64,000 bases of DNA. It comes from Defluviitaleaceae bacterium (GTDB lineage Bacteria; Bacillota; Clostridia; Lachnospirales; WQUN01). The DNA lies in assembly GCA_009780185.1 (NCBI GenBank), contig WRAN01000009.1:1-64000 (forward strand), in the 5' to 3' direction. The position numbers and the translations under genes are program-made. Position 1 is the stretch's first letter. Each line of letters begins with the position of its first letter. Shown here piece by piece: positions 1 through 4,375 of the stretch. The notes beneath the pieces are model-generated. The model searched no databases. It had not been told where the DNA came from and saw nothing but the letters and a program-made list of their open reading frames with translations.

Positions 1-52
1 AAGGACGTTTAACTACTACAGCCAACGGCAGAGACAAAAAATAGAAATCTGT

Positions 53-105
53 GCGATAAAAGCGAGGAGTTGTAGAATACTGTGGCGCTAAGCAACTCTT
101 ATCGC
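53..105. repeat. Imperfect inverted repeat in gene-free left edge
   Basis: The arm GCGATAA...GAGTTG is matched by CAACTCTTATCGC about 25 bases later, with a 7-base bulge in the left arm. No poly-T tract follows. Bases 1-227 hold no coding frame that I can support; this hairpin is the only structure seen. It may belong to a gene lying left of the window. Confidence 0.3.
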
Positions 106-227
106 GTACATAGAATAATATAAATGACGTATTATGGCAATACTTGTATTTTTAGGGATATGTACAACTTTTTGCAAAAATATCAATATTCGCACATATA
201 AAAAATAGTGAAATATATTTTAAACAC

Positions 228-271
228 AAAAAAAACCTTGTAACCATTGATAATGGCTGCAAGGTTTTTTG
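228..271. terminator. Bidirectional intrinsic terminator
   Basis: A/T-flanked hairpin with outer stem AAACCTTG / CAAGGTTT and inner stem CCATT / AATGG, with A-run on the left and T-run on the right. On the minus strand it lies 29 bases after the stop of the small peptide gene and would end the regulator-peptide transcript. Confidence 0.8.
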
Positions 272-299
272 CTGGATTATTGGTGTTGTGGAATAAATT

Positions 300-452
300 T
301 TACAATGGAAATAGGGTATTATAGTCATTGATTTCACTACCGCCAGGCGGAGGATGAGTCCCTCCTCCTATAGGCCCCAATCCCCTAGGAGAGATTAAGA
401 AAATAAAAATAATAATTAAGGCAATAATTGCAGTAAATAATCTTTTCTTCAC
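300..452 (-). CDS. 50-aa secreted peptide, candidate RRNPP signalling pro-peptide
   Basis: A 50-codon gene too short for ordinary gene calling. It starts with GTG, and its ribosome binding site GAGGAG is formed by the last two codons of the upstream HTH-TPR regulator, whose TGA lies 4 bases before the GTG, so the two are translationally coupled. Residues 2-4 are KKR, residues 5-20 are almost purely hydrophobic (Leu, Ile, Phe, Ala), then comes a Pro/Gly-rich stretch and a C-terminal end NDYNTLFPL. That is the layout of an exported signalling pro-peptide: charged N-terminus, Sec-type hydrophobic segment, short tail cleaved to an oligopeptide. Established knowledge: RRNPP regulators (Rap, PlcR, PrgX, Rgg-like) are commonly followed by such a peptide gene. 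That the C-terminal residues are the active signal is inference. It could also be a small membrane protein. An intrinsic terminator follows directly. Confidence 0.65.
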   Translation of the reverse strand: MKKRLFTAIIALIIIFIFLISPRGLGPIGGGTHPPPGGSEINDYNTLFPL

Positions 453-456
453 AATA

Positions 457-1773
457 TCACTCCTCATCATTAGCAAAAATTCGATTACGAGTTTTTAGCA
501 TTGCTTTTGTCATCTCGGAGGATTTTCTATTTTGCCTTGACCTCTCATAATGGTGCTTAAGGAGGGCATAGTACTCATATGCATAAAAGTGGTCATGCAT
601 TTCGTGAAAATGTGGTATTGCAATTTCTTCGATATAGTCACAAGCCTCTTCATTAGGTGTTGTCATTCGGCTACTTACATTAAGATAGTATTCCAGAGCC
701 TTAAAATAAATGGCCCATACTTCATTTGAGCCGCATATAGTTTTTACCTCTGATAATAATGCTCTGGCTTTTGGAAAGATATTTGACTGTATAAGGCAAT
801 GGATTTTTAGACATAGAGGCGCATAATAACCATCTGTATCTTCTTGTGAATATTCTATAGCCTTATCAAAATAATTTATCGCTGATATAAAATCTCCAGA
901 TTTTTTATTCATATATCCGTAACAATACATTATTTCGCGTGTGTGCTCATTGGATAAGTGGCTTTCAGCTTCTATAAGACATTTATCAAGTAGCTTTTTT
1001 GCTTCTCCTAGCTCATCCACTCTTATATAATTCAAAGCAAGCATACGCATCGAATCTAAATAAAGAGTAGTTACCCTATTTTCTAAATCTTGTAAAGGGA
1101 TTTTGTGCAAGTAAATCATGGCTTTAATCGGCTTATCAAGATATGTATAACACGCCGCTATACGATTGTAAAGCCAAGCCTCCTTCGGTGAAACAATAGT
1201 GCTGTGATTTTCTTTTAATATTTGTCCTTTTTGAAGAAAATCCAACGCATTTATATGACGGTTATGAATAATTTCAAAATAGCCCTTGTAGCAATAATAG
1301 CGATATTGATTTTCAGCACTCATCTCATCTAAATGGATTTGGACAGTGTCAAGCTTGGCCCCAGCAGATGCATAATCCCCTTCCGCAGTAAGCATTTGGA
1401 CTTCAATTATTTTGCAACGTATAACTAGGTCAAGATCACAAGGTTTTAAATTATCAATATTAGACATTGTTTTATATATGTCTCTGGCCGCATCCATATT
1501 CCCAACACTAATATAATCGCTACAAAGTTGTAAGCGCGCATCAAAAACAGCACAATCGTGTTCAGTCAATGGCAAGCCCTCTATTCCGAAGAGGGCCATC
1601 ATCGCTTTCATTTGAGACTCAGTTAATCCAGCCTTATCCTTCTCAATTTTGCCAACCCTATCCTTTGCGACTCTTATTTCCTCAGCAAATTCATGCTGGG
1701 ACATACCATGATGTCTTCTTAGTCTACGAATTTTTTCGCCTACAGATAGTATTTCTTTTTGTAGTGTGGGCAT
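457..1773 (-). CDS. HTH-TPR transcriptional regulator, RRNPP-like
   Basis: A 438-aa cytosolic regulator. Residues about 8-65 form an HTH_3/Xre-type DNA-binding domain (KIRRLRRHHGMSQHEFAEEI, then recognition-helix-like AKDRVGKIEKDK). The remainder is helical with tetratricopeptide-like pairs, for example DAARDIYKTM, PIKAMIYLHKIP, GEAKKLLDKCL, DFISAINYFDKAIEYS. This architecture is that of RRNPP regulators, in which the TPR domain binds an imported peptide and switches the HTH. The ATG at 1773 was chosen because GAGGTG lies 8 bases before it; an upstream in-frame GTG at 1794 lacks a site. The stop region overlaps the binding site of a 50-aa secreted-peptide gene, supporting a regulator-signal pair. 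A TTGACA-17-TATTAT promoter and two palindromes precede it, suggesting autoregulation (inference). Confidence 0.85.
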   Translation of the reverse strand: MPTLQKEILSVGEKIRRLRRHHGMSQHEFAEEIRVAKDRVGKIEKDKAGLTESQMKAMMALFGIEGLPLTEHDCAVFDARLQLCSDYISVGNMDAARDIYKTMSNIDNLKPCDLDLVIRCKIIEVQMLTAEGDYASAGAKLDTVQIHLDEMSAENQYRYYCYKGYFEIIHNRHINALDFLQKGQILKENHSTIVSPKEAWLYNRIAACYTYLDKPIKAMIYLHKIPLQDLENRVTTLYLDSMRMLALNYIRVDELGEAKKLLDKCLIEAESHLSNEHTREIMYCYGYMNKKSGDFISAINYFDKAIEYSQEDTDGYYAPLCLKIHCLIQSNIFPKARALLSEVKTICGSNEVWAIYFKALEYYLNVSSRMTTPNEEACDYIEEIAIPHFHEMHDHFYAYEYYALLKHHYERSRQNRKSSEMTKAMLKTRNRIFANDEE

Positions 1774-1833
1774 ATCAATCACCTCAAATATCACTTTTCG
1801 ACAAAAATCAACTAAATTTATGCACGCTCAATA

Positions 1834-1845
1834 GACATATATGTC
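1834..1845. promoter_or_regulatory. Palindrome GACATATATGTC, candidate operator
   Basis: A perfect 12-base palindrome about 20-30 bases downstream of the predicted transcription start of the HTH-TPR gene. Its half-site GACAT is the same as in the palindrome overlapping the -35 box at 1890-1897, so the two may be a pair of sites for one regulator, plausibly the adjacent HTH-TPR protein (inference). Confidence 0.5.
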
Positions 1846-1870
1846 AAAATTCGGCAAACCTCTAAAACAA

Positions 1871-1899
1871 ATAATAAGCTATCAGCACAGACATGTCAA
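1871..1899 (-). promoter_or_regulatory. Promoter of the HTH-TPR regulator
   Basis: On the minus strand TTGACA (1899-1894), a 17-base spacer and TATTAT (1876-1871). The -35 box sits inside the palindrome GACATGTC (1890-1897), so a dimeric regulator bound there would overlap RNA polymerase. Confidence 0.7.
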
Positions 1900-1933
1900 T
1901 ACTTTATTTATAATCATCCAAACAAACACATAT

Positions 1934-1984
1934 AAAAAAACAGTGCTCAATATTGCCAGGCGGCTTTACTGAACACTGATTTTA
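1934..1984 (-). terminator. Intrinsic terminator, minus strand
   Basis: Stem CAGTGYTCA / TGAACACTG with an inner GCC/GGC hairpin, followed on the minus strand by seven T. It lies 220 bases downstream of the flavodiiron gene; the gap holds only a possible 47-codon frame. Confidence 0.65.
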
Positions 1985-2109
1985 TTATGCATCACACACA
2001 TTAGGATAACATGGCAATGGCTTTCATCAAAGCCTCTTAGCTTTTCTATAGTCACATACTTCTGCATGGCTTGCCCTGATATTCCTATATCCTTGGCCAC
2101 AATTCGCAT
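1966..2109 (-). pseudogene. Possible 47-codon remnant with helix-turn-helix-like segment
   Basis: An open frame beginning MRIVAKDIGISGQAMQKYV that resembles the helix-turn-helix part of ParB-like or Xre-like proteins (xVAKxxGISxxAMxKYV). It has no convincing ribosome binding site and its stop lies inside the terminator hairpin at 1934-1984. It may be a gene fragment or chance. I do not recognise a parent gene. Confidence 0.2.
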
Positions 2110-2204
2110 TACATATATGACTTTTTATACGTGCATATTGCGTCTATTTGCCCCGATGATTTGGATAAAAGCTTTCCTTATGGCTTTATTAGCGGGCTTT
2201 GCTT

Positions 2205-3404
2205 CTATGAAGTGAAGTCTTTCACGATATCAGCAGTCAGGGCATTTATCTCTGCAAGTTTGTCCGGCTTAACCGCTGATTTGATACTCACGTCTCCCAA
2301 AAATCTAATACCCTTGCATTTTTCTAACATTTGCCTCATTAACTTGCCGCTTGTTGCGTGCCAGGAGCCGTTTTCTATAAGAGCTACAGCACGGTTTTGG
2401 ATATTATGAGCCACAAGGTCTGAAAGTAAGGCCTCCATGGTTACAAATATTCCTGCGTTGTAGGTGGTAGAGGCGAACACAAAATGACTCCATCTAAAAG
2501 CTGCGGATATTATATCTGAGGCTGGGGTTACAGATACATCATACATAACGGCTTTTATATCGGCGTCCCATAGCCGACTTGCCAGGATTTCCGCGGCGTT
2601 TTCTGTATTTCCATAAACGGAAGCATATGCAATCATTACCCCTTTTTCTTCCGGTTGGTAAGCACTCCAGAGGGCATAGGGATTTATTATTTCTTGTAGG
2701 TTCTTCCGCCAAACAAAGCCGTGAAGCGGGCAAATCATATCAATGATTAAGCTCTCGGTCTTTTTAAACAAAGCTTGAACTTGAGGGCCGTATTTTCCTA
2801 CGATATTGGTGTAGTAGCGCCTGGCTTCACTGAAATAATCCGCCTTAAAGTCTACCTCATCTGCGAAAATTGCCCCATTAAGAGCTCCAAAACTACCGAA
2901 GGCATCAGCGGAGAACAGCATGTGGGAAGCTTCATCGTATGTGACCATAACTTCTGGCCAATGGACCATAGGCGCCATAATAAATTTAAGTTTATGCGCA
3001 CCTGTTGTAAGGATGTCACCCTCTGCTACTATTTTAGTTTTGATATTATTATCAATATTAAAGAACTGGGATACAAAATCAGCGGATTTACGGTTCATAA
3101 CCAACGTAACCCCTGGGTGACGGGCAATTACATCTGCAATCGCTGCGCTGTGGTCTGGCTCTATGTGCTGCAATACTAAGTAATCCAGTGGGCGGCCTTT
3201 AAGCCCTTCTTCAAGATTTTCTAGAAATCTATCCCGGACTGCCTTGTCTACTGTGTCAAAAAGGACTGTTTTCTCATCTAACAGCAGGTATGCGTTATAT
3301 GACACTCCATCTGGTACGGAGTATACTCCTTCAAACATAGCCAGACGCCTGTCATTAGCGCCTACCCACAATAGGTTATTTGTTATTTGTTTTATACAGT
3401 GCAT
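2205..3404 (-). CDS. Flavodiiron protein (A-type flavoprotein, FprA-like)
   Basis: A 399-aa cytosolic oxidoreductase that in this family reduces O2 to water or NO to N2O, protecting anaerobes. The N-terminal beta-lactamase-like half carries the diiron ligand motif H80-x-E82-x-D84-H85 (HIEPDHSA), further ligands in MVHWPEVM, FSADAFGSFG and CPLHGFVW, and the C-terminal half from about residue 255 is a flavodoxin domain with the FMN phosphate loop YASVYGNTE. Length matches the two-domain family (about 400 aa), with no rubredoxin or NADH-oxidase extension, so electrons must come from a separate rubredoxin or similar donor. AGGAGG stands 5-6 bases before the ATG. It is monocistronic, flanked by terminators. 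O2 versus NO preference cannot be read from the sequence. Confidence 0.93.
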   Translation of the reverse strand: MHCIKQITNNLLWVGANDRRLAMFEGVYSVPDGVSYNAYLLLDEKTVLFDTVDKAVRDRFLENLEEGLKGRPLDYLVLQHIEPDHSAAIADVIARHPGVTLVMNRKSADFVSQFFNIDNNIKTKIVAEGDILTTGAHKLKFIMAPMVHWPEVMVTYDEASHMLFSADAFGSFGALNGAIFADEVDFKADYFSEARRYYTNIVGKYGPQVQALFKKTESLIIDMICPLHGFVWRKNLQEIINPYALWSAYQPEEKGVMIAYASVYGNTENAAEILASRLWDADIKAVMYDVSVTPASDIISAAFRWSHFVFASTTYNAGIFVTMEALLSDLVAHNIQNRAVALIENGSWHATSGKLMRQMLEKCKGIRFLGDVSIKSAVKPDKLAEINALTADIVKDFTS

Positions 3405-3426
3405 AAAAACCTCCTAATACTATTCA

Positions 3427-3465
3427 AATAAAATAGCCTGCCTTGTGCAAATACAAGACAGGCCT
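3427..3465 (-). terminator. Intrinsic terminator after the Noc-like gene
   Basis: Stem GCCTGYCTTGT / ACAAGRCAGGC with loop GCAAAT. On the minus strand it is followed by TATTTTATTT. It lies about 70 bases after the Noc-like stop and ahead of the flavodiiron gene. Confidence 0.6.
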
Positions 3466-3532
3466 TATTGCTACAATATATTAATTGTAGTTTATTATTC
3501 CTTATTTTTCAAGTGCGGAACCTCTTTTTTAT

Positions 3533-4375
3533 CTATTGCCCAGCCGCCCTTTTAACCTGGCCTCCAGAATAGTTAAGCTTAATAAGAATATTATATCCCG
3601 TGTCTGTTTGCTCCATATCAAAGTGGGTGTCAATCCCCGACTGGCGCACCATATCAAGGTTCTCTTTTATGGAATTGGTAAGAATACGGATATCCCGTAT
3701 GTAGGCTTTAAATGGAGCTTGACCACTTGCATTTTGGGTTACAGGGGATAGGGTTGCCTCTATCAAGGCTTCTGTTTTGCGTACAGTTAAGCCTTGTTTT
3801 ATTACCTTTGCCAAGATTTCCAACTGAGATTCTTCGCTGTCTAACTTCAGCAGGGCTCTTGCGTGACGCTCTGATAGTTCGTTATCTACTATTAGCCTTT
3901 GCACAGAGCGTGGTAGACGCATTACTCTTATTTTGTTGGCTATTGTGGATTGATTTTTTCCTATACGGCTAGCCAGTCCTTCCTGGGTAAATCCGTAGTC
4001 GGACATAAGGTTTGCAAGGCCTTGGGCTTCTTCAAAGAAGTGTAGGTCTTGGCGCTGTAGGTTTTCTATCATGGCCAGTACTGCGCTATCATGGTCTGTA
4101 ATATCCACTACTATAGCTGGGATTGTAGCAAGGCCAGCCATTTTACACGCTCTTAGCCGCCGCTCACCTGCCACAAGCTCATAACCTGCGCCGTTTATAT
4201 GACGGACGCTTATCGGCTGAAGAAGACCGTATGCCTTAATAGATGAAGCCAACTCTTCCAGGCTTTCCCTATCAAAGATTCGGCGAGGCTGATATGGATT
4301 AGAGTTGACAATACCAATAGGCAGTTGAAGTATTTCGCCGCCCCGGGCAAAAGTGGGGGAACTAGGATTTGTCAT
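3533..4375 (-). CDS. noc: Noc/ParB-family DNA-binding protein, Noc-like
   Basis: A 280-aa ParB-family protein. Residues about 20-115 form the ParB N-terminal (CTP-binding) domain with the arginine patch GERRLRA; EAQGLANLMSDYGFTQEGLA and KNQSTIANKIRVMRLP form the HTH; ERHARALL follows. The C-terminal stretch RDIRILTNSIKENLDMVRQSG closely follows the Bacillus Noc tail pattern (RDxRIxxNxIxxxLxMVxxSG) rather than Spo0J/ParB, so I favour Noc, which keeps division septa off the nucleoid. Noc of B. subtilis has an N-terminal amphipathic membrane helix; here the first 17 residues (Pro, Ser, Gly rich) do not look like one, so membrane targeting may be absent or different. No parA/soj is adjacent, and a parS-like site was not found nearby. 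It is divergent from the P-type ATPase gene. Confidence 0.8.
   Translation of the reverse strand: MTNPSSPTFARGGEILQLPIGIVNSNPYQPRRIFDRESLEELASSIKAYGLLQPISVRHINGAGYELVAGERRLRACKMAGLATIPAIVVDITDHDSAVLAMIENLQRQDLHFFEEAQGLANLMSDYGFTQEGLASRIGKNQSTIANKIRVMRLPRSVQRLIVDNELSERHARALLKLDSEESQLEILAKVIKQGLTVRKTEALIEATLSPVTQNASGQAPFKAYIRDIRILTNSIKENLDMVRQSGIDTHFDMEQTDTGYNILIKLNYSGGQVKRAAGQ

Follow-up and report, generated by a model that had tools for sequence, protein, structure and literature searches.

We examined if an HTH-TPR regulator gene and the short reading frame behind it, near the start of contig WRAN01000009.1 of a Defluviitaleaceae bacterium (GCA_009780185.1), make up a receptor-pheromone pair of the RRNPP quorum-sensing kind. 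The window is the whole stretch of DNA analysed, positions 1 to 64,000 of the contig's forward strand; its features are collected in Table 1. An initial annotation, made from the sequence alone, had proposed such a pair with an "overlapping" secreted-peptide gene. Its description of a 50-codon GTG gene placed 4 nt past the regulator stop, with the ribosome binding site within the final regulator codons, was confirmed by the sequence; the spacer reads TATT, and the Shine-Dalgarno sequence was equally placed in several relatives. The overlap holds for that binding site, which lies inside the regulator, but not for the genes, which abut with the 4-nt gap. The encoded propeptide, VKKRLFTAIIALIIIFIFLISPRGLGPIGGGTHPPPGGSEINDYNTLFPL, showed the KKR start, the 16-residue hydrophobic stretch and the polar tail ending NTLFPL that had been read from it. 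The terminator assigned to the end of the peptide gene was also present; a generic terminator scan missed it, and it was found by folding of the hairpin and its T-run.

Table 1. Features of the receptor-propeptide cassette and its flanks (window coordinates)
Feature	Position	Strand	Details and basis
HTH-TPR receptor/regulator gene	457..1773	-	438 aa + stop; ATG at 1773, stop TGA 459-457
N-terminal Xre-type HTH, residues 11-65	1579..1743	-	PF01381 15-65, PF13560 12-65
TPR superhelix, residues 71-433, predicted pheromone-binding domain	475..1563	-	AF2 helices; Rap/NprR structural alignments
Shine-Dalgarno AGGAG of peptide gene	460..464	-	within final regulator codons; sequence
Propeptide gene	300..452	-	50 codons + stop; GTG 452-450, TAA 302-300
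Hydrophobic export segment, propeptide residues 5-20	393..440	-	sequence; aligned h-region in A4
Conserved Gly/Pro module GPIGGGTHPPPGG, propeptide residues 26-38	339..377	-	A4 conservation; repeated/relocated elsewhere
Intrinsic terminator 3' of peptide gene	about 228..271	-	hairpin -19 kcal/mol, then T-run
Regulator promoter	1871..1899	-	TTGACA (1899-1894), 17-nt spacer, TATTAT (1876-1871); 11/12 matches
Palindrome GACATGTC over -35, putative operator, unsupported	1890..1897	.	present; missing from 16 homologous upstream regions
Palindrome GACATATATGTC in 5' leader, putative operator, unsupported	1834..1845	.	present; missing from 16 homologous upstream regions
Sequence 100% common to contig C28 end, also at contig C7 start (cassette L004)	1..123	.	

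The window receptor matched Pfam HTH_3 and TPR families above cut-off, and its AlphaFold model (AF2) had a pLDDT of 94.4. The best PDB matches of this model in Foldseek were NprR and pheromone-bound Rap, and VIA-align scored Rap-Phi3T with its pheromone at Z 34.6, NprR-NprX at 29.8 and AimR at about 22. Since TPR proteins without a relationship scored up to about 21, the Rap and NprR matches are well separated from that background and the AimR match is not. The best natural PDB sequence match of the receptor profile was again NprR (E 1e-21). The protein has the length (438 aa, within the range of 250-500), the RRNPP-type TPR superhelix and the N-terminal HTH of RRNPP receptors and, as modelled, is an RRNPP-type receptor with a nine-TPR superhelix and an NprR/Rap-like fold. 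Resemblance, rather than a tree including those families, places it with clan B of the published classification, that of NprR, Rap and QssR (PMC12700828). A PHROGs search returned regulators and unknowns only, and neither protein of the pair matched a toxin or antitoxin family above the curated cut-off beyond generic HTH/TPR.

The genome (2.55 Mb, 31 contigs) encodes 16 HTH-TPR paralogues. The eight closest receptors, the window receptor included (36-49% identity), were each followed at 4-20 nt by a small secreted-type gene, whose product began K/R-rich and continued with a hydrophobic segment, in most cases VYA/GP, and a GPxGGGxxPP module; the more distant receptor L143 also had an adjacent propeptide gene. 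At least eight paralogous receptor-propeptide cassettes are present in this one genome. Homologous regulator-peptide pairs, for which the initial annotation had advised a search, were found there, in sister genomes (9 receptor matches in G001 and 23 in G002, where two represent parts of a single gene), and as related cassettes in families f19 and f16 and in further genera of f1. The named records that matched the family are MAGs labelled "Defluviitaleaceae bacterium", obtained from Embiratermes and Labiotermes termites, and for that Defluviitaleaceae group the P1 hindgut was the main source (PMC7024585); judging by the sister genomes, the window organism probably also came from a termite gut. 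When 391 genomes of the class were surveyed, with four candidates scored per genome, no other genome appeared at E 1e-60. Phage, plasmid and viral-contig collections gave no match to the receptor, and an origin from any of these sources was rejected on that ground.

Linkage of the two genes was assessed by counting as a peptide gene any secreted-type small ORF starting from -60 to +30 nt relative to the receptor stop. A Sec-type propeptide lay behind 26 of the 27 receptors scoring at least 380, as against 2 of 163 control genes; the figure was 13/25 for receptors scoring 240-380 and 8/36 for those scoring lower. Within the propeptide frames synonymous differences exceeded nonsynonymous ones (pS 0.39, pN 0.17), dN/dS was below 1 in 22/22 pairs (not all of them independent), and differences by codon position were 273/186/423 over the 22 pair comparisons. 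By these codon patterns, which are of the kind left by translation, the propeptide frames are under purifying selection at the family level. The initial annotation had staked its proposal on relatives that keep the regulator also keeping the short frame, and nearly all of the close receptors did so. A six-frame search of three genomes with an HMM from the A4 alignment of 20 propeptides recovered the window propeptide at E 1e-10, and strong matches lay almost only beside HTH-TPR receptors. No convincing solo peptide appeared in this search, the inspected strong matches all adjoining receptors except for a partial one (G000:C1:33518).

Alignment A4 read MKK+L...VYAGPxGGGxxPPxxPPxxxSI, with Pro34 invariant and Pro27 and Pro35 present at 90% or more, and the basic start, hydrophobic export segment and signal-bearing tail of RRNPP propeptides were all found in it. 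Most propeptides carry an A-x-A cleavage site; that of the window and L002 are without one. The conserved part is the Gly/Pro module GPxGGGxxPPxxPP, of which GPIGGGTHPPPGG is the window version. In most propeptides it directly follows the leader; in L006, L021, L023, L026, L027 and L028 it is C-terminal, behind a linker, and L008, L022 and L105 contain internal repeats of it. A unit that shifts and repeats in this manner is likely the functional one, and we consider this internal module, on its conservation, to be probably the active part and the proposed source of the mature signal. The initial annotation had looked to the C-terminal NTLFPL as the signal-bearing end; this was rejected, since NTLFPL has no counterpart in any of the aligned relatives. 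In f19 the conserved part lies further downstream and is of the PTSAPIxLP type, so the signal has shifted between families. Peptide genes were duplicated in tandem at L023, L024, L026, L027, L043, L071, L073, L074 and L078, and also at L094, L104, L105 and L147. Tandem copies include the 3' end of the regulator because the ribosome binding site lies there: in L103 the first peptide has the regulator's C-terminal residues, QLMEGDLSL, at its end, and a tandem copy at L026 likewise carries the regulator 3' end.

The regulator promoter called by the initial annotation as TTGACA-17-TATTAT was found to be conserved in paralogues as TTGACA-17-TATAAT. The best promoter had a spacing of exactly 17 nt in 17 of 17 cassette upstream regions (the window's included), and 14 of the 17 scored at least 10/12, the shuffle mean being 0.46. 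The two palindromes put forward as operators are both present where they had been placed, and are mildly unusual (the same count was reached in 2-3% of shuffles); neither occurred in any of the 16 paralogue or homologue upstream regions. The promoter is thus conserved and the operator claim is unsupported, and the palindromes were set aside as operators. Upstream of L023 (about -194) the promoter spacer is taken up by a different palindrome, CATATATACGTATATATG, perfect over 18 bp, of which the related L032 has a degraded version.

The initial annotation had also advised checking if the peptide tail covaries with the TPR domain of its regulator. Over 45 pairs (Mantel), mature-peptide distance correlated with TPR distance at r 0.57 and with HTH distance at 0.38; the partial correlation was 0.46 for TPR given HTH and -0.03 for HTH given TPR. 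With a column-matched control the contrast shrank to 0.35 (TPR) against 0.13 (HTH), with a peak at about residues 250-323. The covariation is there, but confounded: leader distance likewise correlated with TPR distance (0.52), so co-duplication of the whole cassette explains much of it. The covariation of the mature peptide with the TPR domain, itself a comparison of sequences, supports binding of the peptide by that domain, short of proof.

Six of the eight cassettes of this genome lie near contig ends, and the repeats in secreted-protein genes probably broke the assembly. Contig C28 encodes, on the strand of the cassette, an incomplete (>1,100 aa) secreted protein with FN3 repeats; from the overlap in Table 1 we infer a join of C28 to C9 that would place this FN3 gene downstream of the window cassette. 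At least four cassettes of the genome have a large secreted FN3-type protein downstream (window 1-123; L122; L114:8549-9265; L115). The L003 and L005 cassettes are followed by secreted proteins having a domain of the C28 protein (41% over 116 aa for L003), and one of the secreted proteins beside these two has a TPPPGGSTPTPPPGG linker resembling the signal module. In eight f19/f16 genomes 12 of 32 receptors had a small AbrB/MazE-type regulator gene on their own strand no more than 2 kb downstream, some 100 times the expected number of about 0.1; AbrB identity was checked for one gene, and the f19 examples are L059, L063, L071, L072, L075 and L081. These linkages suggest that the linked genes are outputs of the cassettes, giant secreted FN3 proteins here and AbrB-type regulators in the related family. 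Window positions 2041-2101, in a 47-aa ORF upstream of the regulator, shared 79% identity with the equivalent position upstream of L004, so the cassette was duplicated together with its flanks. An Rfam search of window positions 1-4000 and the contig-end repeat gave no convincing structured RNA.

We consider it highly probable that the locus is an RRNPP-type peptide-signalling cassette working throughout as follows. One promoter would give a joint transcript of regulator and propeptide, and translation of the peptide would initiate at the ribosome binding site inside the regulator's final codons. The Sec-like leader would export the propeptide, which would then be trimmed to a short peptide from the Gly/Pro module, and an oligopeptide permease would re-import it; four SBP_bac_5 (OppA-type) proteins are encoded in the genome. 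The peptide is predicted to bind the concave face of the nine-TPR superhelix and, by so doing, to alter DNA binding by the N-terminal HTH at its own promoter, at neighbouring promoters, or at both, with the linked giant secreted FN3 protein as the likely target in this genome. The gene system is solid; the signalling role, as read from sequence, is that of a candidate. On each feature that gave a clear outcome, the pair is an RRNPP system. In these terms the proposal of a new RRNPP receptor-pheromone pair was upheld, by the NprR/Rap-like fold and by the linked, conserved propeptide.

Three other explanations were weighed against signalling. The small gene might encode a secreted peptide with a job outside the cell (surface, antimicrobial or metal-binding), the HTH-TPR protein regulating it and the linked surface genes without sensing it. 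Some propeptides of 60-90 aa do have Cys-rich tails (CIEYCNCNTPLCEC), which are odd for a simple pheromone, and the linkage to large secreted FN3/Cu_amine_oxidN1 proteins would fit as well; we nevertheless regard this as unlikely, given that the receptor folds like known peptide receptors, that the propeptides resemble those of pheromones in length, K-rich leader, internal repeats and tandem copies, and that the mature part tracks the TPR domain. It is very unlikely that the genes are a toxin-antitoxin-like pair, in which the HTH protein restrains a small hydrophobic toxin: an HTH gene and a short hydrophobic peptide do share an operon and the HTH weakly matches antitoxin HTH families, but cleavable-type A-x-A/GP leaders with a conserved soluble Gly/Pro tail are not traits of a membrane toxin, the regulator is a full nine-TPR receptor, and no toxin family was matched.

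A reading in which the HTH-TPR regulator is an ordinary orphan and the short frame behind it arose by chance has next to no probability. Short ORFs are common, and the distant receptors mostly go without one (8/36 have it); at the family level, however, this reading was refuted by the linkage counts (26/27 against 2/163), the selection on the frames (dN/dS below 1 in 22/22 pairs) and the HMM matches (E 1e-10 for the window). A further reading keeps the signalling and extends it: a gut lineage would run many private peptide channels in parallel (8 in this genome, about 20 receptors in a sister genome), the shared Gly/Pro signal would resemble PPPGGSTPTPPPGG linkers in the giant secreted proteins encoded next to some cassettes, and the receptors would sense breakdown products of the surface proteins of their own community along with dedicated pheromones. 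We give this extension little credence.

As an RRNPP-type signalling cassette, the window pair may be compared with NprR-NprX of the Bacillus cereus group (clan B), which likewise has an HTH plus nine-TPR receptor and an adjoining propeptide gene, and whose receptor gave the top natural sequence match and one of the closest fold matches. NprR-NprX differs in that identity over the aligned fold is 16-19% and in its signal, the window's being a Gly/Pro module with letters unrelated to NprX; the window pair was therefore rejected as NprR-NprX proper. The host differs also, having at least eight paralogous cassettes per genome and not being a Bacillus. The window family has its nearest parallel in the Qsr-Qsp system of C. 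acetobutylicum, which comprises eight regulator-peptide pairs, the precursors being 39-50 aa long and encoded downstream of the regulator; the active region of QspB is internal, the active peptide is AEPTWGW, and the core ends in a conserved Leu/Pro/Trp (PMC7376267). This comparison was by description, and the signal here is GPxGGGxxPPxxPP, not AEPTWGW. C. saccharoperbutylacetonicum has five parallel Qss regulators, each with a short precursor gene (PMC7206700). Rap-Phr of Bacillus and phages shares multi-copy cassettes and internal pheromone repeats with the window family, and pheromone-bound Rap was the strongest structural match; unlike the window receptor, Rap is without an HTH, and identity is 12% and the signals are different. 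AimR-AimP (arbitrium) also pairs an HTH-TPR receptor with an adjacent propeptide, at a fold Z of about 22, near the level of unrelated TPR proteins, but it is phage-borne, whereas the window receptor had no homologue in phages or viral contigs.

RRNPP_detector reported 21 novel RRNPP subfamilies from complete genomes only (PMC10075063). The window pair fits its rules, under which the receptor has 250-500 aa and the propeptide 10-100 aa, at a spacing of -60 to +400 bp; the loci of the window family are in MAGs, and, set against those clusters by the published rules, the family may overlap one. A literature search found no paper combining "termite" and "RRNPP". With its nearest candidates compared by description, the cassette family is apparently an undescribed subfamily of the known RRNPP kind. 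It would give a lineage that is common in termite hindguts, and mostly uncultured, a subfamily whose signal module is of a new kind. The many natural receptor-peptide pairs per genome, with tandem and internally repeated signals and peptide-less receptors among them, are a ready collection of data on how peptide-receptor specificity splits after duplication, and testable outputs are offered by the FN3 surface proteins and the AbrB-type regulators linked to the cassettes.

Twenty-three related HTH-TPR receptors that form a clade with strong support (SH-aLRT 100; members L009-L014, L038, L082-L083, L088-L093, L096-L101) were without adjacent peptide genes, and these are possible "eavesdropper" receptors. 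Multiple pheromones per propeptide, duplicate propeptides and peptide-less receptors are described for RRNPPA systems, along with the terms "chatterers" and "eavesdroppers" (PMC9765709). Propeptides L003, L005, L007, L017, L025, L029 and L049 have Cys-rich C-terminal tails, of which CIEYCNCNTPLCECD is an example. To our knowledge, such tails are unlike those of known RRNPP pheromones. The L008 propeptide (L068, G000:C8) stops after its second repeat, and the frame past the TGA encodes a Cys-rich tail like that of paralogues. This may represent a recent truncation, or it could be an assembly error.
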